NCBI RefSeq assembly: GCF_019024325.1
Contig: NZ_JAFNJS010000002.1
Location: 248,118-312,117 of the forward strand
Reading direction: 5' to 3'
Origin: Falsiroseomonas tokyonensis
GTDB taxonomy: Bacteria; Pseudomonadota; Alphaproteobacteria; Acetobacterales; Acetobacteraceae
Length of the DNA: 64,000 nt
Positions 2,276 through 12,126 of this stretch are shown here, in pieces (the stretch's first letter is position 1; every line of letters begins with the position of its first letter). Position numbers and translations under genes: made by a program. Below the pieces are notes generated by a model that was not told where the DNA came from, did not search any database, and was given only the letters and a program-made list of their open reading frames with translations.

Positions 2276-3151
2276 CTATTCCTTGGGCGGCAGGCATAGC
2301 ACATCGGCATGGCCGATGCGGGCGGAAAGGCGGGCGAGGCCGGCCTGGGCGCGGCGGTCCACGGCCCAATGCAGGATCCGGCTTCGGTCGCGGCGCAGCT
2401 GGCCCATGGCGGCCTGGGCATGGCCGCTGGCGAGCTGCGCCACCATCTCGGGGTCCTGGCGCGGAATCCGCCAGTCGCTCGGCGCGCGCTGCACGCTGTA
2501 ACCGTGCGCCGCGAAGGCCGCCGCGATCACGCCCGGCGCGCGGGCGCCCAGCGCGATGCCACCGAATCCCTTGTCGCGTAGCTGGTCGCGGGCGAAGCCG
2601 CGGGCTACCAGCGCATCGGCCCGGTGCGGCGGGTCGAAGCGTTCGCGGCCGGTGACGTTCAGCGCGGCATAGAAGGGCAGCCGGTGCTTCGCGCAGCCGG
2701 CGGCCATGCGCGAGACCCAATCCTCGGAGACGAGGTCGCAGAGCGCGGTGTTCACCACCGCATCCACCTGGCCGAGCGGCAGGCCCTGCGGCGCCTCGCG
2801 CAGATCGGCGATCAGCCCTTCCATCCGCCAGGCGCCGCCGGGCGCATGCACCAGCAGCGTCTTGCGATTGGCGAAGGTGGCGGGCCAGTCCTGGTCCTCG
2901 GCGAAGGCGGCCGTGGTGGTGAAGGCGCGCGACAGCAGCCCGCCATCCGCATCCACCAGCGTCCAGGCCTGGGCGCGGCCGATGATGGGCGCCATCCAGC
3001 GCATCAGGGACCCGGTGCCGGCGCCGAGATCCAGCAGCCGCGGCCGCGCCGGCAGGGCGGCGGCCAGTTGCTCGGCGAGCGCCAGGTTGCGTGCGGCGCC
3101 GTCATGCGGCTCGCGCAATTCCAGCCAGTCGCCATCGAAGCTCTCGGCCAT
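2276..3151 (-). CDS. Class I SAM-dependent methyltransferase
   Basis: Protein of 291 aa with the Rossmann motif I LLDLGAGTGSLM at residues 39-50 and an acidic end of the second strand (LVDAD), which bind S-adenosylmethionine. No membrane segment or signal peptide. The stop lies 4 bases before the OtnK start and the gene starts 1 base after the glycosyltransferase stop, so it is translationally close to both. The acceptor is not readable from the sequence; beside a glycosyltransferase, PTPS homologue and RibD-like reductase, methylation of a small pterin- or sugar-containing metabolite is the most economical guess. Confidence 0.85.
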   Translation of the reverse strand: MAESFDGDWLELREPHDGAARNLALAEQLAAALPARPRLLDLGAGTGSLMRWMAPIIGRAQAWTLVDADGGLLSRAFTTTAAFAEDQDWPATFANRKTLLVHAPGGAWRMEGLIADLREAPQGLPLGQVDAVVNTALCDLVSEDWVSRMAAGCAKHRLPFYAALNVTGRERFDPPHRADALVARGFARDQLRDKGFGGIALGARAPGVIAAAFAAHGYSVQRAPSDWRIPRQDPEMVAQLASGHAQAAMGQLRRDRSRILHWAVDRRAQAGLARLSARIGHADVLCLPPKE

Positions 3152-3152
3152 G

Positions 3153-4193
3153 TCAGCCTGCCTTGTCGAGTTCGGCGAGGAAGGCCGTCGCGCGATCCTC
3201 CCAGCGCGGCAGCTTCTGGCCGGCGGCCCAGGCGGCCTCCGCCATTTCCGCGCGCAGGTCGGTGTCGAAGATCACGCGGCGCATCGCCTTGCCGAGCGAG
3301 ACCACGTCGCCGGGCGGGGAGATCACGCCCGCCGCCACCGGCACCACCTCCGCGATCGCGCCGCCGGCGGTGATGGCCACGGGCAGGCCGCGCGCCAGCG
3401 CCTCGGCCGCGGCCATGCCATAGCCCTCCCAATGCGTCGCCAGCGCGAACAGGTCCGCGCCAGCCCAGAGCGCGTCCAGCTGCGCACCCGAAACCTCGCC
3501 GGCGAAGGTGACGCGGTTCGCCAGGCCCAGCTCCTCCGCCAAAGCGCGCAGGCCATCCGCATGCACCGCATCGCGCGGCGGGCCGACGATGGTCAGCGTC
3601 CAGTCCAGGTCGGAAAGTCCGCCGAGCGCCCGCAGCAGCACGTCATGCCCCTTGCGCGGCACCAGCGTGCCGATGGTGAGGATGGCGCAGCCCGGCCCGC
3701 CGGAGCCGGTGCTGCGCGGCGCCGGATCGGTGCCCGGCTCCACCACGCCGATGCGCGCTTCCTCCACGCCGAATTCCGGCGGCAGGCGGCGTGCGGTCAG
3801 CGGGCTGGTGGCGACGAGGCGGGCGAAGGCCGGGAACATCGCCTGTTCCGCCGCGCGCAGCGCATCGCGCACCGGGCCGGGATTGCCGTGTTCCAGCGCG
3901 GTCGGGTGGTGGATCAGCCCGACCGCCTTTCGCTGCACCAATTCCTCCAGCTGCGGCTGGAAGGCGGGCAGGCCGAGGCCGTCGATGATGATGCGCGCAT
4001 CGGGCGGCACGGCGTCCAGCGCCGCGCGGGCGCCGGCCAGCGCCTCGGTATCCGGCAGCGGATGCACGCCGGGCAATTCGATCACCTGCACGGCATGGCC
4101 CTGGGCGCGCAGGCCGGCGACCAGGCGGCGGTCATAGCCGTAGCCGCCCGAAATGGCGTCGAAGGGGGCGGGGACGAGAAAGGCGATATCCAC
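3153..4193 (-). CDS. Glycosyltransferase family 4 (GT-B)
   Basis: Protein of 346 aa. The N-terminus (MDIAFLVPAP followed by a glycine-rich loop) is the acceptor-side Rossmann domain. The C-terminal half has IGTLVPRKGHDVLLRAL with Lys181, and the E-x7-E motif in HWEGYGMAAAEALARGLP (Glu256 and Glu264), the donor-nucleotide-sugar signature of retaining GT4 enzymes. No transmembrane segment, so a soluble cytoplasmic enzyme is expected. It lies 3 bases from the PTPS-like gene and 1 base from the methyltransferase. Its linkage to a PTPS homologue recalls the pterin glycosyltransferases of cyanobacteria and green sulfur bacteria; that parallel is inference. Confidence 0.88.
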   Translation of the reverse strand: MDIAFLVPAPFDAISGGYGYDRRLVAGLRAQGHAVQVIELPGVHPLPDTEALAGARAALDAVPPDARIIIDGLGLPAFQPQLEELVQRKAVGLIHHPTALEHGNPGPVRDALRAAEQAMFPAFARLVATSPLTARRLPPEFGVEEARIGVVEPGTDPAPRSTGSGGPGCAILTIGTLVPRKGHDVLLRALGGLSDLDWTLTIVGPPRDAVHADGLRALAEELGLANRVTFAGEVSGAQLDALWAGADLFALATHWEGYGMAAAEALARGLPVAITAGGAIAEVVPVAAGVISPPGDVVSLGKAMRRVIFDTDLRAEMAEAAWAAGQKLPRWEDRATAFLAELDKAG

Positions 4194-4196
4194 AGG

Positions 4197-4595
4197 TCAG
4201 ACAGGTCCCTCGAAGGCGGCCCAGGCGACGTGGCTTTCGCGCAGCAGGATCTTCAGGCCGGTCACCGCGCGGCCGCCATCGCCCAGCACGCCATCCCGGC
4301 AGGCCTTGGCCAGCAGCCCGTGGATATGCAGGCAGAGATATTCGGTGGTGGTGTTCTTGCCCGCAAAAACCTCCTCGGCATCGAGGTTGCGGTAGTCCAG
4401 CGGCGCAAGGATGGCGCGCAGGTGATCCTTCGCCAGGCCGATATCGACCAGCAGATGCAGGTCATCCAGCTGCGGCGCGCGGAACTCCGCCTCTACGATG
4501 AAGGTCGCGCCATGCAGCCGCTGGGCGGGGCCGAAGGCTTCGCCGCGGAAGGAATGGGCGATCATGATGTGATCGACGACGGTCAGGCTGAACAT
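4197..4595 (-). CDS. 6-pyruvoyl-tetrahydropterin synthase/QueD homologue, divergent active site
   Basis: Protein of 132 aa, typical for the T-fold PTPS/QueD family. The start is fixed by the family N-terminus MFSLTVVDHIMIAHSF. Conserved features include the first zinc ligand His in IAHSF, RLHGATFIVE aligned with the canonical CGRLHGHSF block, NTTTEYL with the pterin-anchoring Glu, and a C-terminal LLRESHV. Two canonical residues are replaced: the catalytic Cys before RLHG is Ala (AQRLHG) and the second His of HGH is Ala (HGA). The enzyme may thus bind a pterin but not do ordinary QueD chemistry. The gene sits between the dehydrogenase and glycosyltransferase genes. Confidence 0.85.
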   Translation of the reverse strand: MFSLTVVDHIMIAHSFRGEAFGPAQRLHGATFIVEAEFRAPQLDDLHLLVDIGLAKDHLRAILAPLDYRNLDAEEVFAGKNTTTEYLCLHIHGLLAKACRDGVLGDGGRAVTGLKILLRESHVAWAAFEGPV

Positions 4596-4609
4596 GCGCA
4601 CACTCACTC

Positions 4610-5587
4610 TTATAGATAGGTGACGACGGGGCAGAGCGGTTGATGTGCGCCCGATGGTGGCGACAGCAAGGCGCCATAGGCCTCCGGCAGGTCGGAAAAC
4701 GCCGTGTCGGGGCCGAGCAGCGCATCGAGGCGCGCATCGTCCAGCAGCGACAGGGCCAGCGCGAGGCGTTCCCCATGCGTGCGGCGGCCGCGCATCGCGG
4801 GGGCGACATGGCCGACCTGGGTGGAGATCAGCGACAGGCGTTTCGAATGAAAGGCCTCGCCCAGTGGCAGCTCGCAGGACTTGTCGCCGAACCAGGAGGC
4901 CTCGACCACGCGCCCCTCGAAGCCGCAGCGCGACAGCGCCAGGCGCAGGCCTTCCGCGCTGGCCGAGGCATGGATCACCAGGTCGCGTTCCGCGGGCGCC
5001 TCCGCCGGCGCACAGAAGGTCGCGCCGAAGGACTGCGCCAGCTCGGCGCGGGAGGCGTCGAGGTCGCAGACATGCAGGTCGAGGCCGGGGATGCGGCCAA
5101 GCAGGAAGGTGACCAGCAGCCCCACCACGCCGGCGCCGACCACCAGCACCCGCTCCCCGACCAGCGGCCGCGCATCCCACAGGATGTTCACCGCGGTTTC
5201 CATATTCGCGCCGAGCACCGCGCGGCGGTCCGGCACGGCATCGGGGATGGGGATGCACATGCCGGCGGGCGCCACGAAGGCATCATGGTGCGGGTGCAGG
5301 CAGAAGACGCGCTTGCCGTGCAGATGCGCGGGCCCGGCCTTCACCGTGCCGACCGCGGCATAGCCATAGGAGAGCGGTGCCGGAAACTCGCCGTATTGCA
5401 GCGGCGCACGCATCGCCGGCCATTGGCTTTCGGGCACGTGGCCCGCGAAGACCAGGCGTTCGGTGCCGCGCGAGATGCCGGAGGCGTGGGTGACGACCAG
5501 CGCCTGGTCGGGGCCTGGCACGTCCAGCTCCTGCCCGCGCAGCTCGGCCTGGAAGGGGGCGGTGATCCAGAGAGCCTGGGCCTTCAT
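4610..5587 (-). CDS. Zinc-type alcohol dehydrogenase superfamily (MDR) oxidoreductase
   Basis: Protein of 325 aa. An N-terminal GroES-like domain (ASGISRGTERLVFAGH) is followed by the nucleotide-binding VLVVGAGVVGLLVT at residues 147-160. The classical Cys-GHE catalytic zinc block is not evident and the SRGTE segment replaces it; I therefore read it as an MDR relative rather than an ordinary alcohol dehydrogenase. Its ATG overlaps the RibD-like stop by 4 bases, indicating translational coupling. A role in reducing the pterin side chain or its precursor is suggested only by its neighbours. Confidence 0.82.
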   Translation of the reverse strand: MKAQALWITAPFQAELRGQELDVPGPDQALVVTHASGISRGTERLVFAGHVPESQWPAMRAPLQYGEFPAPLSYGYAAVGTVKAGPAHLHGKRVFCLHPHHDAFVAPAGMCIPIPDAVPDRRAVLGANMETAVNILWDARPLVGERVLVVGAGVVGLLVTFLLGRIPGLDLHVCDLDASRAELAQSFGATFCAPAEAPAERDLVIHASASAEGLRLALSRCGFEGRVVEASWFGDKSCELPLGEAFHSKRLSLISTQVGHVAPAMRGRRTHGERLALALSLLDDARLDALLGPDTAFSDLPEAYGALLSPPSGAHQPLCPVVTYL

Positions 5588-6363
5588 GGCGCGGAACCTT
5601 CAGAGCAGATGCCAGGCCGCGCGCGGCCGAGGGCGATGTCGAAGAGCATATCCTCGCCTATGCGGTGCGGGGTCCATTCGAAACGCAGCCCCTGGGCGAT
5701 GCGGTTCGCCGGCGGCAGGGAAAAGGCGGGGATGCCGGAGCCCAGGATGATGGGGGCCACGGTCAGGTGCAGCCGGTCCAGCAGGCCGGCCGCCAGGAAG
5801 GCGGAGACGGTGCGCCCGCCGCCTTCGACGAAAATTTTTGTCAGTCCGCGCGCGGCGAGGTCGCGCAGCAGGCCGGGCAGGTCCGGCTGCACCAGCACCT
5901 CCGCCTGGCCATGCGTCGCGGCGCCGGGCGTGCTGGCCACCAGCAGGGTAGGCGCCGCATTGTCACAAAAAACCTTGTGCGTGGCGGGCAGGCGGCGCTG
6001 CGGGTCCAGCACCACGCGCACCGGGTTCGGGCCGGTCACTTCGCGGGTTGTCAGCCGCGGATCGTCGTGATGCACGGTGCCGGCGCCGACCAGCACCACG
6101 TCACACAGCGCGCGCAGGCGATGCGTGTGCAGGATATCGCCGCGCCCGCCGATCCATTGGCTGGACCCGTTGTCGCAGGCGATGCGCCCATCCAGCGTCT
6201 GCGCCAGACGGCCGATCACGATGCAGCCATCGGGCGCCGTGGGCGGCGTCAGCAGCGGCGCGAAGAGCTGGCCGAGCGTGCCGGGCGGCACGGCGCCGTC
6301 GGCGCGCGCGGCCAGCAGCGCGTTCCAGTCGGCGGTTTCGGTGGCGAGGGCTGCGTCTGTCAT
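5584..6363 (-). CDS. RibD C-terminal-domain reductase (dihydrofolate-reductase fold)
   Basis: Protein of 259 aa consisting only of the reductase half of RibD; the deaminase half with its zinc-binding HAE/PCxxC motifs is absent. The fold is recognisable from QTLDGRIACDNGSSQWIGG, the helix with LRALCDVVLVGAGTVHHDDP, and the NADPH-binding IFVEGGGRTVSAF near residue 180. Proteins of this type reduce pyrimidine or pterin intermediates. As first gene of the tight five-gene block (RibD-like, dehydrogenase, PTPS, GT4, methyltransferase), it is a good candidate for a pterin or pyrimidine reductase rather than the riboflavin enzyme. Confidence 0.85.
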   Translation of the reverse strand: MTDAALATETADWNALLAARADGAVPPGTLGQLFAPLLTPPTAPDGCIVIGRLAQTLDGRIACDNGSSQWIGGRGDILHTHRLRALCDVVLVGAGTVHHDDPRLTTREVTGPNPVRVVLDPQRRLPATHKVFCDNAAPTLLVASTPGAATHGQAEVLVQPDLPGLLRDLAARGLTKIFVEGGGRTVSAFLAAGLLDRLHLTVAPIILGSGIPAFSLPPANRIAQGLRFEWTPHRIGEDMLFDIALGRARPGICSEGSAP

Positions 6364-6411: not shown

Positions 6412-6924
6412 TCAGCGCAGCGACGCCCCCGGGAACAGCGGCAGCAGCAGCTCCGCCGCCATGCCGGCCAGCAGCGGCAGCGCAAAACTCGCCATCAGCC
6501 GCAGCACGATGAACCGGCCGCCGAGGATCGGCAGTTCCCAGGCCAGGGTCCGATGCATGCCAAGGATCGCCCAGCCGGAGATCAGCGCCACCATCTGCGC
6601 CGGCCCCGCGCCCGCCTTCAGGAAGCCCAGCACCAGCGGGAAGGTCACGAAGGGCCCGCCCGGCAGCATGCCGCCGGCCAGCGAGGCCAGCACCACGCCC
6701 ACGAAGCCGCTATCCGGGCCCAGCCATTGTTCCGCCCAGCCGGCCGGGATCAGCTCCGCGATGAAGGCGGCCATGGGCAGCGCCATCAGCATCACCGGCA
6801 GCACGCGCCACAGCGCGCCGCCCGCATCCGCCACCGCGCGACGGCCGAGCGCCGGGCTGCGCCGCAGGCACATGGCCAGCGCGCCGAGCGCCACCACCCA
6901 GATGGCGATCACGCCGAAGCTCAT
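6412..6924 (-). CDS. Half-size integral membrane permease (second of a tandem pair)
   Basis: Protein of 170 aa, almost entirely hydrophobic. It has an N-terminal helix (MSFGVIAIWVVALGALAM), then segments around LPVMLMALPMAAF, GGPFVTFPLVLGFL and ALPLLAGMAAELLL. Shared with the upstream gene are a glycine-rich GGP-x3-FP-x-VL element and WELPILG. The layout looks like one half of the two-repeat DUF318/ArsP-type permeases. The start codon overlaps the upstream stop (ATGA), implying coupled synthesis, probably of a heterodimeric carrier. Substrate unknown; the neighbouring biosynthetic genes make export of their product one possibility. Confidence 0.72.
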   Translation of the reverse strand: MSFGVIAIWVVALGALAMCLRRSPALGRRAVADAGGALWRVLPVMLMALPMAAFIAELIPAGWAEQWLGPDSGFVGVVLASLAGGMLPGGPFVTFPLVLGFLKAGAGPAQMVALISGWAILGMHRTLAWELPILGGRFIVLRLMASFALPLLAGMAAELLLPLFPGASLR

Positions 6925-7487
6925 GCCGCGCGGTCCGGCCGCGTGGTGGCCACGCCCTGCATGCCGGGCGCATCCGCGGGGCTCCAGCGGATCGGCAGCC
7001 AGCGCGCGATCAGCCCGGCCAGGATCGGCAGCGGCAGGCCGCAGAGCAGGCGCAGCAGGGCGAAGTCATGCCCGAGGATCGGCAATTCCCACACGACGAT
7101 GCGCTGGAAGCCGTTCAGCGACCAGGCGAGCACGAAGGCGATCAGCGCGCCGCGATCGGCCCCGGCCTGGGCCAGCACCAGCACGACGGGAAAGGCAGCC
7201 ACCGGCCCGCCCGGCATGGCCATGCCTGCGGCGGTCGCCACCAGCAGCCCGCGCAGCCCGCTCTCGGCCCCCATCCAGCGGGCCAGCGCGCCGGGCGGCA
7301 CCAGCTGGCGCAGCGCGGCAGAAAGCAGCAGCCCGCCGAGGATGGAGGGCAGCACGGTCAGGATCAGGTCCCAGGTGGCGCCCAGCGCATGCTGCACGGC
7401 AGCCCAGCCGCGCAGCCACCAGACCGCGAGGGCGGAGGCCAGGGTCAGGGCGGAAATAACCAGGAATGTTGCGTTGCGGCGGAGCAT
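6921..7487 (-). CDS. Half-size integral membrane permease (first of a tandem pair)
   Basis: Protein of 188 aa starting MLRRNATFLVISALTLASAL, with about five hydrophobic segments. It contains MAMPGGPVAAFPVVLVLAQ and VVWELPILGHDF, homologous by eye to GGPFVTFPLVLGFL and AWELPILGGRF in the next gene. The two therefore appear to be paralogous halves of a permease related to the DUF318/ArsP group. This gene heads the minus-strand run, so its upstream 60 bases (7488-7547) may carry the operon promoter; no convincing -35/-10 was seen there. The terminal 25 residues are hydrophilic. Confidence 0.72.
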   Translation of the reverse strand: MLRRNATFLVISALTLASALAVWWLRGWAAVQHALGATWDLILTVLPSILGGLLLSAALRQLVPPGALARWMGAESGLRGLLVATAAGMAMPGGPVAAFPVVLVLAQAGADRGALIAFVLAWSLNGFQRIVVWELPILGHDFALLRLLCGLPLPILAGLIARWLPIRWSPADAPGMQGVATTRPDRAA

Positions 7488-7943: not shown

Positions 7944-8332
7944 GGGGAAGATCCTTCCGGGGTGGCGGTGGGGGAGCGTGTCGTGCCGTTTTGGGTGCCG
8001 TGGTTTTGGCGGGCGTGGCTTTGTGCCGCCGGGTCTTGTCCGGCGAGGCGGGTGAGCTCGCGCAGCACCGCCTCTCCGATTCCGAGGCCGCCGGCCTTGG
8101 CCAGGTCCTTGGCGATGGCGTCGACCAGCATCGGGCGCCACTGGCCCTCCGCCGCGCCGCCGCCGAAGGGGGCCTTGGTGTCCAGCCCCTGGAACATCGG
8201 CTGCAGCAGCGCGCCGAGGGCCTGGGCCTCGAAATCCTGGGCCGCGCGCCGCAGCCCGGCCGGGTTCTGATTGCCGCGCGGCGTGGCCAGCGGGGCAGGG
8301 GCGGCGGTGGCGCGCGGGGGGGGGATGCTCAT
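7940..8332 (-). CDS. flgJ: Rod-binding protein FlgJ (N-terminal domain only)
   Basis: Protein of 130 aa. The rod-binding domain is clear: LRRAAQDFEAQALGALLQPMF, the conserved helix of the FlgJ N-domain, then WRPMLVDAIAKDLAKAGGLGIGEAVL. The muramidase domain of enterobacterial FlgJ is absent, as is usual in alphaproteobacteria, so a separate peptidoglycan hydrolase must open the wall. The ATG at 8332 overlaps the flgI stop by 4 bases. The frame is open far upstream but that extension lies antisense-like inside flgI and is low-complexity. Confidence 0.85.
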   Translation of the reverse strand: MSIPPPRATAAPAPLATPRGNQNPAGLRRAAQDFEAQALGALLQPMFQGLDTKAPFGGGAAEGQWRPMLVDAIAKDLAKAGGLGIGEAVLRELTRLAGQDPAAQSHARQNHGTQNGTTRSPTATPEGSSP

Positions 8333-9441
8333 CAGCGCACCTCCAACTCGGCCTGCAGCGCGCCGGCCGCCTTGATGGTCTGCAGGATGGTGATCATGTC
8401 GCGCGGCCCGACGCCCAGGCCGTTCAGCCCGCGCACCAGCTCCTCCAGCGTCACGCCGCCGCGCAGGATGCCGAGGCGTCGGTCCGCCTGGTCGTCCACC
8501 TCCACATTGGTGCGCGGCACCACCGCGGTCTGCCCGCCGGCCAGCGCATTGGGCTGCACCACCTGCGGCGTTTCCGTGATGCGGATGGTCAGGTTGCCCT
8601 GGGCGATGGCCACGGTGGACAGCCGCACATTGGCGCCCATGACGATGGTGCCGGAGGCTTCCTCGATGACGACCCGGGCGATCTGGTCCGGCTGCACGCG
8701 CAGCTGCTCGATCTGGGCGATGAAGGCGACCGAGTCGCGCCCGGTGAGGCTGACGCTGACGGTGCGCGGGTCGGTGGCCGTCGCCGGATTGCCGCCGGTG
8801 CTGCCATTGATGACGGCGGCGATGCGCCGCGCCGTGGTCAGGTCCGGGTTGCGCAGCGACAGGCGCAGCCGGTCGCCGCCGGCAAAGCTGTAGGCCACCT
8901 CGCGTTCCACCGTCGCGCCATTGGCGATCCGGCCGGCGGTCGGCACGCCGCGGGTGACGGAGCCGGCGGCGCCGCGGGCGGACACCGCGCCGGTGACGAT
9001 CGGCCCCTGCGCCACCGCATAGACCTCCCCATCCGCGGCCAGCAGAGGGGTGACCAGCAGCATGCCGCCGGTGAGGTTCGTGGCATCCCCCAGGGCGGAG
9101 ACGGAAATGTCGATCCGGCTGCCGGTGCGGGCGAAGGCGGGCAGATTGGCGGTGACCATCACCGCCGCGACGTTCCGCGTATCCAGCTGGCGTTCCTGGT
9201 CGCGCGTGTTCACGCCGAGGCGTTCCAGCACGCCGATCAGCGACTGCCGGGTGAAGACCGCGCTGCGCAGCTTGTCGCCGGTGCCGTTCAGCCCGACCAC
9301 CAGGCCGTAGCCGACCAGCTGGTTCTCGCGCATGCCCTCGACATCCGCGATGTCCTTGATGCGCACCTGGGCCAGGCCGCCCATCGGCGAGAGGAGCAGG
9401 ATGAACAGCAGCACGGCCAGGCCGCGCCGCAGGTCGCTCAT
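8332..9441 (-). CDS. flgI: Flagellar P-ring protein FlgI
   Basis: Protein of 369 aa, standard for FlgI. A signal peptide (MSDLRRGLAVLLFILLLSPM, then LAQ) precedes the mature start VRIKDIADVEGMRENQLVGY, the strongly conserved FlgI N-terminus; GLVVGLNGTGD follows. It is exported and assembles the periplasmic P ring around the rod. I chose the ATG at 9441 because it begins the signal peptide; an in-frame ATG at 9489 would add 16 residues. A near-perfect sigma-54 promoter lies at 9518-9532 on the same strand. The gene is divergent from fliX, as in Caulobacter. Confidence 0.96.
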   Translation of the reverse strand: MSDLRRGLAVLLFILLLSPMGGLAQVRIKDIADVEGMRENQLVGYGLVVGLNGTGDKLRSAVFTRQSLIGVLERLGVNTRDQERQLDTRNVAAVMVTANLPAFARTGSRIDISVSALGDATNLTGGMLLVTPLLAADGEVYAVAQGPIVTGAVSARGAAGSVTRGVPTAGRIANGATVEREVAYSFAGGDRLRLSLRNPDLTTARRIAAVINGSTGGNPATATDPRTVSVSLTGRDSVAFIAQIEQLRVQPDQIARVVIEEASGTIVMGANVRLSTVAIAQGNLTIRITETPQVVQPNALAGGQTAVVPRTNVEVDDQADRRLGILRGGVTLEELVRGLNGLGVGPRDMITILQTIKAAGALQAELEVR

Positions 9442-9517
9442 CCTCAGGCAAGGTTTTGTCGCCACACTGCTCCTCCTCGCCGCCGCCATCCTGGTGGAGG
9501 GGCGCGGGGGTGCCTCC

Positions 9518-11052: not shown

Positions 11053-12126
11053 TCAGGCGGAGGGGTCCAGCAGGTCCTTCTTGCCGGCGCGATAGGCGCG
11101 CTGCGACGAGGCCTGGCGGCGGCGCTGCATCGCCTGCGCCGCCCGGTCCCGCGCCCCGCTGGCCTCGGCCAGCTCCTGCTCCAGCTTGCGGAAATGCGCC
11201 CAGCGCGCGGCATCCAGCGCGCCCGCCTCCAGCGCCGCGCGCACCGCGCAGCCGGGCTCGGTGGTGTGGCTGCAATCGCCGAAGCGGCATTGGCTGGCCA
11301 GCTGCTCGATATCCTCGAAGACCGTGCCGAGGCCGGCCTCGGCCTCGACCAGCCCGACCTCCCTTATGCCCGGCGTATCCAGCAGCAGCCCGCCGCCGGG
11401 TAGCAGGATCAGGTGGCGGGCGCTGGTGGTGTGGCGGCCGCGGGCATCGGCCGCGCGGATTTCCTGAGTCGCCATCCGCTGCTCGCCCAGCAGGGTGTTC
11501 ACCAGCGTGGACTTGCCGACGCCGGAGGAGCCGATCAGGACGCAGGTCTCGCCCGGCCGGATCTGCGCCCGGATGGCGTCGAGCCCGATTCCCTGGCGCG
11601 CCGAGACGACCAGTACCGGGCAGCCGGCGGCCAGCTTCGCGACCTCCGCCGCCGCGGCTTCCGGCGCCTCGGACAGGTCGGCCTTGGTCAGCACCAGCAC
11701 GGGCCGCGCGCCGCTCTGCCAGGCGGCGGCCAGGAAACGCTCCAGCCGGCGCGGATTGAGGTCCGCATTCAGCGAGGTGACGACGAAGACCACGTCGATA
11801 TTGGCGGCGATCACCTGCAGGGTCTGCTGGCTGTCCGCCGCCCGGCGGATGAAGGCGGTGCGGCGCGGCAGCACGGCATGGATGGTGGCGCTGCCCTGGT
11901 CGGGCTTGGCGGCCAGCGCCACCCAGTCGCCGGCCGCCGGATAGCCCGCCTGCCGCGCCGCATGCCGCAGCCGGCCGGAGAGCCGGGCCTCCAGGATGCC
12001 GAGGTCGGTCGCGACCAGATCGGCCTCCCGCCGCTGCACGACGATGCGGCCGGGGATATGGCCGGCGGCTTCATGCGGGGCGAAGGCCTGCGCCCAGGAC
12101 TCGGACCAGCCATAGGCCCCGATCAA
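11053..12126 (-). CDS. rsgA: Ribosome small subunit-dependent GTPase RsgA
   Basis: Protein of 357 aa. The circularly permuted GTPase order is visible: G4 TKAD at 147-150, then G1 GSSGVGKST at 199-207, and G3 DTPG at 250-253. An OB-fold domain precedes it and a zinc-binding C-terminal domain follows, with Cys280, Cys285, His287 and Cys293 in CRFGDCSHTTEPGC. RsgA checks late 30S maturation. Only 36 bases separate its end from the small membrane-anchored ORF end; this gap contains two copies of CCGCCTCAGGC. Confidence 0.95.
   Translation of the reverse strand: MIGAYGWSESWAQAFAPHEAAGHIPGRIVVQRREADLVATDLGILEARLSGRLRHAARQAGYPAAGDWVALAAKPDQGSATIHAVLPRRTAFIRRAADSQQTLQVIAANIDVVFVVTSLNADLNPRRLERFLAAAWQSGARPVLVLTKADLSEAPEAAAAEVAKLAAGCPVLVVSARQGIGLDAIRAQIRPGETCVLIGSSGVGKSTLVNTLLGEQRMATQEIRAADARGRHTTSARHLILLPGGGLLLDTPGIREVGLVEAEAGLGTVFEDIEQLASQCRFGDCSHTTEPGCAVRAALEAGALDAARWAHFRKLEQELAEASGARDRAAQAMQRRRQASSQRAYRAGKKDLLDPSA

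Follow-up and report, generated by a model that had tools for sequence, protein, structure and literature searches.

Pterin glycosides occur in cyanobacteria and in Chlorobium, where a protein of the PTPS family is accompanied by a family 4 glycosyltransferase (GT4). The early steps of riboflavin synthesis in archaea and fungi include a reductase of 2,5-diamino-6-ribosylamino-4(3H)-pyrimidinone 5'-phosphate (DARPP) and a creatininase-family deformylase, and relatives of creatininase deformylate formamidopyrimidine (FAPy). A further relevant protein is SCO6650, which we take from its name to come from Streptomyces coelicolor; it is known as a structure only (PDB 3d7j) and reportedly has neither zinc nor PTPS activity. 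The PTPS-IV subfamily corresponds to cluster-node 62 of an AGeNNT analysis (COG0720, 561 sequences), with PF00925 and PF01872 as neighbours (PMC5445326), and it is marked by an FGPAQ motif and by adjacent genes for a RibD_C protein and GTP cyclohydrolase II (GCH2) (PMC5445326, PMC5041015). The passages of these papers that deal with the subfamily name no MDR dehydrogenase, GT4 or methyltransferase (MT) partner and no tested function. Here, we analysed a five-gene block in a 64,000-nucleotide stretch of DNA (the window). It belongs to contig C12 of an Acetobacteraceae genome of 6.16 Mb, to which Falsiroseomonas and Roseomonas are the closest relatives with a name. The block encodes a PTPS-IV protein together with a RibD_C reductase, an MDR dehydrogenase, a GT4 and an MT. 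We propose, with moderate confidence, that it is an operon for a GTP-derived pterin- or pyrimidine-like small molecule that branches from early riboflavin synthesis and is glycosylated and often methylated.

The block shares the FGPAQ motif and the RibD_C neighbour with the published subfamily and, at part of the loci in other lineages, also GCH2. Its likeness to the archaeal and fungal route lies in a RibD_C reductase without a deaminase and, in other lineages, in creatininase and GCH2 partners; unlike in that route, no lumazine or riboflavin synthase is among the recurrent partners, and PTPS-IV, MDR, GT4 and MT have no counterpart there. A PTPS-family protein and a GT4 are held in common with the pterin glycoside systems of cyanobacteria and Chlorobium, but the PTPS of the block lacks the PTPS-II residues. 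SCO6650 is of the same subfamily, and its Streptomyces relatives share the MDR-PTPS-GT4-MT order together with creatininase and GCH2.

The five genes lie on the minus strand and span positions 2276 to 6363. The RibD C-terminal-type reductase (5584–6363; PF01872, 149.8 bits against a cut-off of 24.1) has no deaminase domain, RibD_C being its sole Pfam match, and is a paralogue of the housekeeping RibD. It is followed by a short, BchC-like MDR dehydrogenase without recognisable zinc ligands (4610–5587), the PTPS-IV protein (4197–4595; PF01242, 68.0 bits), in which HGA replaces HGH, the GT4, which starts at GTG and has conserved donor-site and E-x7-E residues (3153–4193; PF00534, Glycos_transf_1, 99.6 bits), and a divergent class I S-adenosylmethionine (SAM)-dependent MT (2276–3151; weak PF13489 match). 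RibD_C and MDR overlap by 4 bases, and the remaining gaps measure 14 (MDR-PTPS), 3 (PTPS-GT4) and 1 (GT4-MT). The original prediction had described a tight or overlapping block here, and all five open reading frames were found at or very near the positions it gave, with RibD_C, PTPS and Glycos_transf_1 above their Pfam cut-offs. The MDR and MT matches were weak and below cut-off (Glu_dehyd_C, 20.5 against 34.9; Methyltransf_23, 20.2 against 27). The mechanically called PTPS frame begins further upstream (GTG 5258); Met stands at the position of ATG 4595 in 14 of 14 aligned rows, the window included, which makes this codon the likely start. Compared with three loci of the same genus (L029, L048, L031), the five genes gave dN/dS values of 0.03–0.48 and therefore look constrained. 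A PADLOC screen for a defence role returned one weak match, of the MT to mad2 (2.5e-5), and none for the other four genes. The single-sequence structure model of the MDR was useless (mean pLDDT 35.8).

The conservation of the block was analysed inside and outside a group defined as Acetobacteraceae sensu lato (some of its genera are now in Roseomonadaceae or Elioraeaceae) plus co-retrieved unclassified metagenome-assembled genomes. Of the 128 loci first examined, 92 belong to this group; some represent the same genome twice (e.g. L029, L046) and are not all independent, several are cut by contig ends, and one (L043) holds QueD only. The set outside the group comprises 65 loci (47 plus 18); 14 of the 20 plasmid matches were opened, and two of these, the Streptomyces loci L192 and L211, are not among the 47. 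PTPS was present in 127 of the 128 loci, MDR in 122, GT4 in 119, RibD_C in 114 and MT in 100. Within the group the corresponding counts were PTPS 92, MDR 88, RibD_C 86, GT4 85 and MT 68, and outside it MDR 64, GT4 62, MT 59 and RibD_C 52. A gene-neighbourhood search, which the original prediction had proposed, showed the block to be conserved, with the strict MDR-PTPS-GT4-MT order kept at 67 of the 92 group loci and at 55 of the 65 outside loci (40/47 and 15/18). RibD_C stood upstream on the same strand in 86/92 group loci and, outside the group, mostly downstream on the opposite strand (25/47 and 14/18). As it is adjacent in different lineages on either strand, the linkage was kept through rearrangement. 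Genes that come together again in varied arrangements argue more strongly for a joint function than one inherited operon would.

The carriers outside the group include Streptomyces, Micromonospora, Thiodictyon, rhizobia and alphaproteobacteria with genomes of 1.4–1.6 Mb. In Micromonospora, the genes run MDR-PTPS-GT4-MT-flippase-GCH2-RibD, all in one direction. Three alphaproteobacteria with genomes of this size (L179, L180, L181) hold MDR, PTPS, GT4, MT, RibD_C, GCH2 and creatininase together. Among 385 alphaproteobacterial genomes sampled, 45 (about one in nine) had a PTPS-IV match of at least 135 bits; 52 reached E 0.001, the extra seven being weak partial matches of 20–27 bits. A phylum-wide draw of 398 genomes gave 27 matches at E 1e-20, of which 11 came from other classes. 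Twenty plasmid records carry PTPS-IV, including those of Streptomyces, Arthrobacter, Microbacterium, Methylosinus, rhizobia and the gammaproteobacterium Candidatus Thiodictyon. On the two Streptomyces plasmids L192 and L211, PTPS-IV has genes of the MBL-fold and cupin types nearby; their gene table, which is incomplete and was not supplemented by a search, lists no block gene.

Block queries on seven other stretches of the window's own genome (six loci and window positions 12001–64000) found no MDR, PTPS, GT4 or MT; the same stretches gave creatininases, for which loci had been chosen, the RibD and GCH2 of the rib operon, and two response regulators. In a concatenated tree of 52 loci, from which six rows without the full gene set had been dropped, the 11 group rows formed one side of one branch and the four actinobacteria one side of another, both with support 100. 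Pairwise distances of the five proteins correlated (Spearman 0.55–0.68). The tree and the distances are compatible with travel of the genes as a unit. The conservation is far beyond chance, and the block is a real, conserved set of genes that are very probably linked in function.

Judged by its residues, the PTPS of the window is a member of the published, uncharacterised PTPS-IV subfamily. An FGPAQ...HGAT motif, which includes the published signature, was invariant in 14 aligned PTPS rows. The window protein has FGPAQ, and across 58 aligned members the five positions were conserved as F21 (58/58), G22 (58/58), P23 (57/58), A24 (58/58) and Q25 (57/58). Residues were placed with profile alignments and with the canonical QueD that stands beside QueC in a relative (G023). 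In all 58 members the catalytic Cys is replaced by Ala (A24) and one zinc-binding His by Ala (A30). The CxxxHGH of PTPS-I and QueD is thus AxxxHGA, with A24, H28 and A30 each at 58/58; of the PTPS-II motif CxxxxxHGH and its Cys-Asp-His triad, the Cys is gone, the zinc His is Ala, and the triad His position is Tyr in 52/58, Phe in 5/58 and Leu in 1/58. E120, which we take to be the Glu that anchors pterins in the PTPS family, is retained in 58/58. The nearest solved structure is SCO6650 (E 9.2e-58, profile positions 1–130). The protein is the sole PTPS-family match of its genome. Strong homologues were found in 26 of 59 genomes including its own: every one of the 15 from the genus, a further 10 from the family and one from elsewhere. 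A 27th match (E 3e-4) proved to be a QueD.

In sequence records, PTPS-IV genes bear the name '6-carboxytetrahydropterin synthase', several of them with a queuosine GO term. Under that label, the protein would be the genome's QueD in the synthesis of queuosine (7-deazaguanine), and the other genes of the block would be incidental. The genome does encode QueC on contig C3 with QueF and QueG beside it, without any other PTPS match, and 20 of the 23 family genomes with QueC and PTPS-IV, from a set of 35 genomes, show no second PTPS, which remains odd. The CxxxHGH residues are lost throughout the subfamily, however, and the QueD model TIGR03367 scored 36.9 bits, below its cut-off of 89.25. Three genomes (G008, G011, G049) keep PTPS-IV without QueC, and three (G025, G029, G032) have PTPS-IV and a second PTPS. 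Within the family, strong QueC occurred in 8 of 10 genomes without PTPS-IV and in 23 of 25 with it (Fisher p 0.56, small numbers). The residue and co-occurrence tests argue against the deposited queuosine-type label, and a queuosine role, being disfavoured on both counts, appears the least probable of the alternatives that we weighed. As separate observations, the region C3:11000-28000 (L202) holds QueC, QueF, QueG and a YhhQ-like precursor transporter, yet the genome has no canonical QueD; G020, G021 and G026 lack any PTPS match despite a strong QueC; and in one genome (L036, G030) QueC lies ∼1.2 kb upstream of the block RibD_C.

Synthesis of F0 also begins from a reduced riboflavin-type pyrimidine, which would suit an involvement of PTPS-IV in F420 synthesis. 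Such an involvement is mentioned, from unpublished work, in a passage of PMC5041015. In two genomes of one genus, G280 (C10) and G360 (C132), CofH and the PTPS-IV gene are ∼9 kb apart. Against this, CofH scored above its cut-off in 12 of 58 genomes with PTPS-IV and in 11 of 80 without (Fisher p 0.36), and no CofH or FbiC was found in the window's genome. As CofH is not significantly commoner with PTPS-IV and is absent from the genome itself, the F420 role is not supported and we regard it as very unlikely.

The partner genes point to another precursor. Near the block, at the 65 outside loci, GCH2 (28), cytochrome b561 (18), FkbM (14), creatininase (12), YceI (10) and a response regulator (10) recurred. 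The best solved relative of the block RibD_C is 6p8c (3.4e-26), a DARPP reductase. The protein differs from the bifunctional bacterial RibD in having no N-terminal deaminase domain, and the rib operon on contig C56 has a longer ribD of its own (39% match). In the window's genome RibD_C adjoins PTPS-IV and GCH2 does not; GCH2 matches lie at two places, on contig C1, where the copy keeps its zinc cysteines, and in the rib operon. The RibB-like protein of the latter (C56:240000-257000, L203, at 8326–9453) has a GCH2-like domain without zinc cysteines.

The zinc cysteines were present in all 20 aligned near-block GCH2 copies, out of 28 outside the group. Tyr was found at GCH2 position 314 in 18 of the 20, the exceptions being two Streptomyces copies with Met. 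The idea that GCH2 is everywhere of a FAPy-only type was rejected, as the Tyr-to-Met change was confined to these two Streptomyces copies among 21 rows. The Streptomyces order is PTPS, GT4, MT, flippase, creatininase, GCH2, which would presumably be numbered SCO6650 to SCO6655. SCO6655 is said to halt at formamidopyrimidine owing to a Tyr-to-Met-type change of this kind. In published lists, SCO6655 is given as GTP cyclohydrolase II (PMC2853524) and SCO6652 as a hypothetical protein (PMC3610822); the latter has the entries 0.8, 4.3 and 4.1 in columns of unidentified meaning in an expression table.

Since the block is often near GCH2 outside the group and its PTPS has lost the catalytic residues, the precursor is likely a GTP-derived, riboflavin-type diaminopyrimidine rather than tetrahydrobiopterin or a deazapurine. 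The original prediction had drawn on the tetrahydrobiopterin route, as in the glycosides of cyanobacteria and Chlorobium. A GT4-family enzyme and a PTPS homologue do share one operon here, but the genome's only PTPS match is without the PTPS-II motif, the catalytic Cys and one zinc His, and the partners elsewhere are GCH2 and a RibD-type reductase. A biopterin glycoside of that kind therefore seems quite unlikely, and this part of the prediction found no support.

The GT4 retains its catalytic residues, with K181 and E256 kept in 56/56 rows and E264 in 49/56 (E-x7-E), and in the MT the glycine-rich SAM motif was kept at D41 (52/54), G45 (54/54) and G47 (53/54). The closest curated model for the MDR is that of BchC, the bacteriochlorophyllide dehydrogenase (TIGR01202), but the score of 49.3 bits is far from the equivalog cut-off of 291.25; all 22 MDR homologues scanned matched this model at E 0.001 or better. 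An S-x-G-T-E motif was present in 56 of 57 MDR rows, the remaining row being gapped, and, by reading of the sequence, the usual zinc-ligand motif is missing. With bchC as the best model and no such motif, the label 'zinc alcohol dehydrogenase' is misleading. Among the 92 group loci, 17 had the GT4 without a nearby MT, although contig ends truncate several of these; methylation may therefore be dispensable in part of the group. Some group genomes have RibD-MDR-PTPS with no GT4 beside it, and five of them (L232–L236) were searched for the gene. A loss of GT4 in some genomes was considered and rejected: in 5/5 of these the GT4 was found elsewhere (55–61% identity, E <=1.3e-111), the next-best GT4 reaching no better than 2.4e-17, and the gene is therefore retained.

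From the gene set, its conservation, the residues and the partner genes, we infer the following reactions, their order and their product. GCH2, whose gene lies elsewhere than the block in this genome, would open GTP to DARPP, and the block RibD_C would reduce the ribosyl chain while the ring is not deaminated. PTPS-IV, a T-fold protein without the zinc and cysteine chemistry of QueD or biopterin synthase, may grip the 2-amino-4-oxo heterocycle through the conserved Glu and, together with the MDR dehydrogenase, may remodel the ring or the side chain. GT4 would then attach a sugar, and the MT a methyl group. The original prediction of a biosynthetic cluster for a glycosylated pterin or deazapurine thus survives in part. 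A conserved, biosynthetic-looking block with intact GT4 residues, an MT and an invariant E120 makes glycosylation and methylation of a pterin-like product plausible on sequence grounds, whereas the deazapurine is disfavoured by the QueD residues and the co-occurrence data.

Several observations weigh against this pathway. Neither GCH2 nor creatininase is beside the block in the window's genome, and a search of the 92 group loci with one divergent query for each gene showed neither next to it; outside the group, GCH2 is near the block in under half of the loci. The substrate of GT4 and MT could be a sugar or lipid instead of a pterin. In addition, the lipid-type partners at the outside loci (CDP-alcohol phosphatidyltransferase 24/65, MdoH-like 18/65, flippase-like 13/65) are unexplained by a simple soluble glycoside. 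Together with the GT4 and a sulfatase-like partner (9/65), they could indicate a membrane glycan or glycolipid, with a sugar or polyol as the substrate of PTPS-IV and RibD_C and only a secondary part for the heterocycle. We consider this unlikely, as sugar chemistry alone hardly accounts for the recurrence of GCH2 or for a PTPS fold with its Glu kept in every member. It is conceivable, though doubtful, that the product is a membrane-anchored pteridine or diaminopyrimidine. In that case the riboflavin-type pyrimidine would be reduced and then reshaped by PTPS-IV and the BchC-like MDR, after which it would be glycosylated, methylated, linked to lipid through the CDP-alcohol phosphatidyltransferase and flipped by an LPG-synthase-type membrane protein.

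The genes that flank the block in the window were found beside it in its own group only. Downstream on the minus strand lie otnK, a 3-oxo-tetronate kinase (1012–2271, start ATG 2271; NF043035, 601 bits), and otnC, a 3-oxo-tetronate 4-phosphate decarboxylase (384–1019; NF043034, 275.5 bits). Upstream, also on the minus strand, are two overlapping ArsP_1-like half-permeases (6412–7487; PF03773, 33.4 and 32.7 bits, barely above the cut-off of 32.3), beyond which apparent flagellar genes were observed. Among the group loci, otnK was found in 70/92, otnC in 51/92 and the half-permeases in 24/92, and all three were at 0/65 outside. In all five split-block genomes, otnK and otnC adjoin the GT4 and not the PTPS. 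A role of otnK and otnC in the system was rejected because they stand beside the block in the window's group only; otnK is probably co-transcribed with the block and lies outside the conserved system. The suggested export of the product by the adjacent half-permeases found no backing in these distributions.

The PTPS-IV subfamily and two of its neighbours have been published before, whereas searches of open-access literature turned up no description of the wider gene set or of how far it is spread. With the block, the orphan structure SCO6650 gains a genomic context and a candidate substrate class, the GTP-derived diaminopyrimidines. Were the membrane-anchored product real, proteobacteria and actinobacteria would have in common a cofactor of a new class, carried on a lipid, active in redox reactions or light absorption and working with partners of the cytochrome b561 and YceI types. 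The spread of the system, from 45 of 385 sampled alphaproteobacteria with PTPS-IV, and three with genomes of 1.4–1.6 Mb, to Streptomyces and Thiodictyon, suggests that its metabolite, as yet without a name, is of general use.

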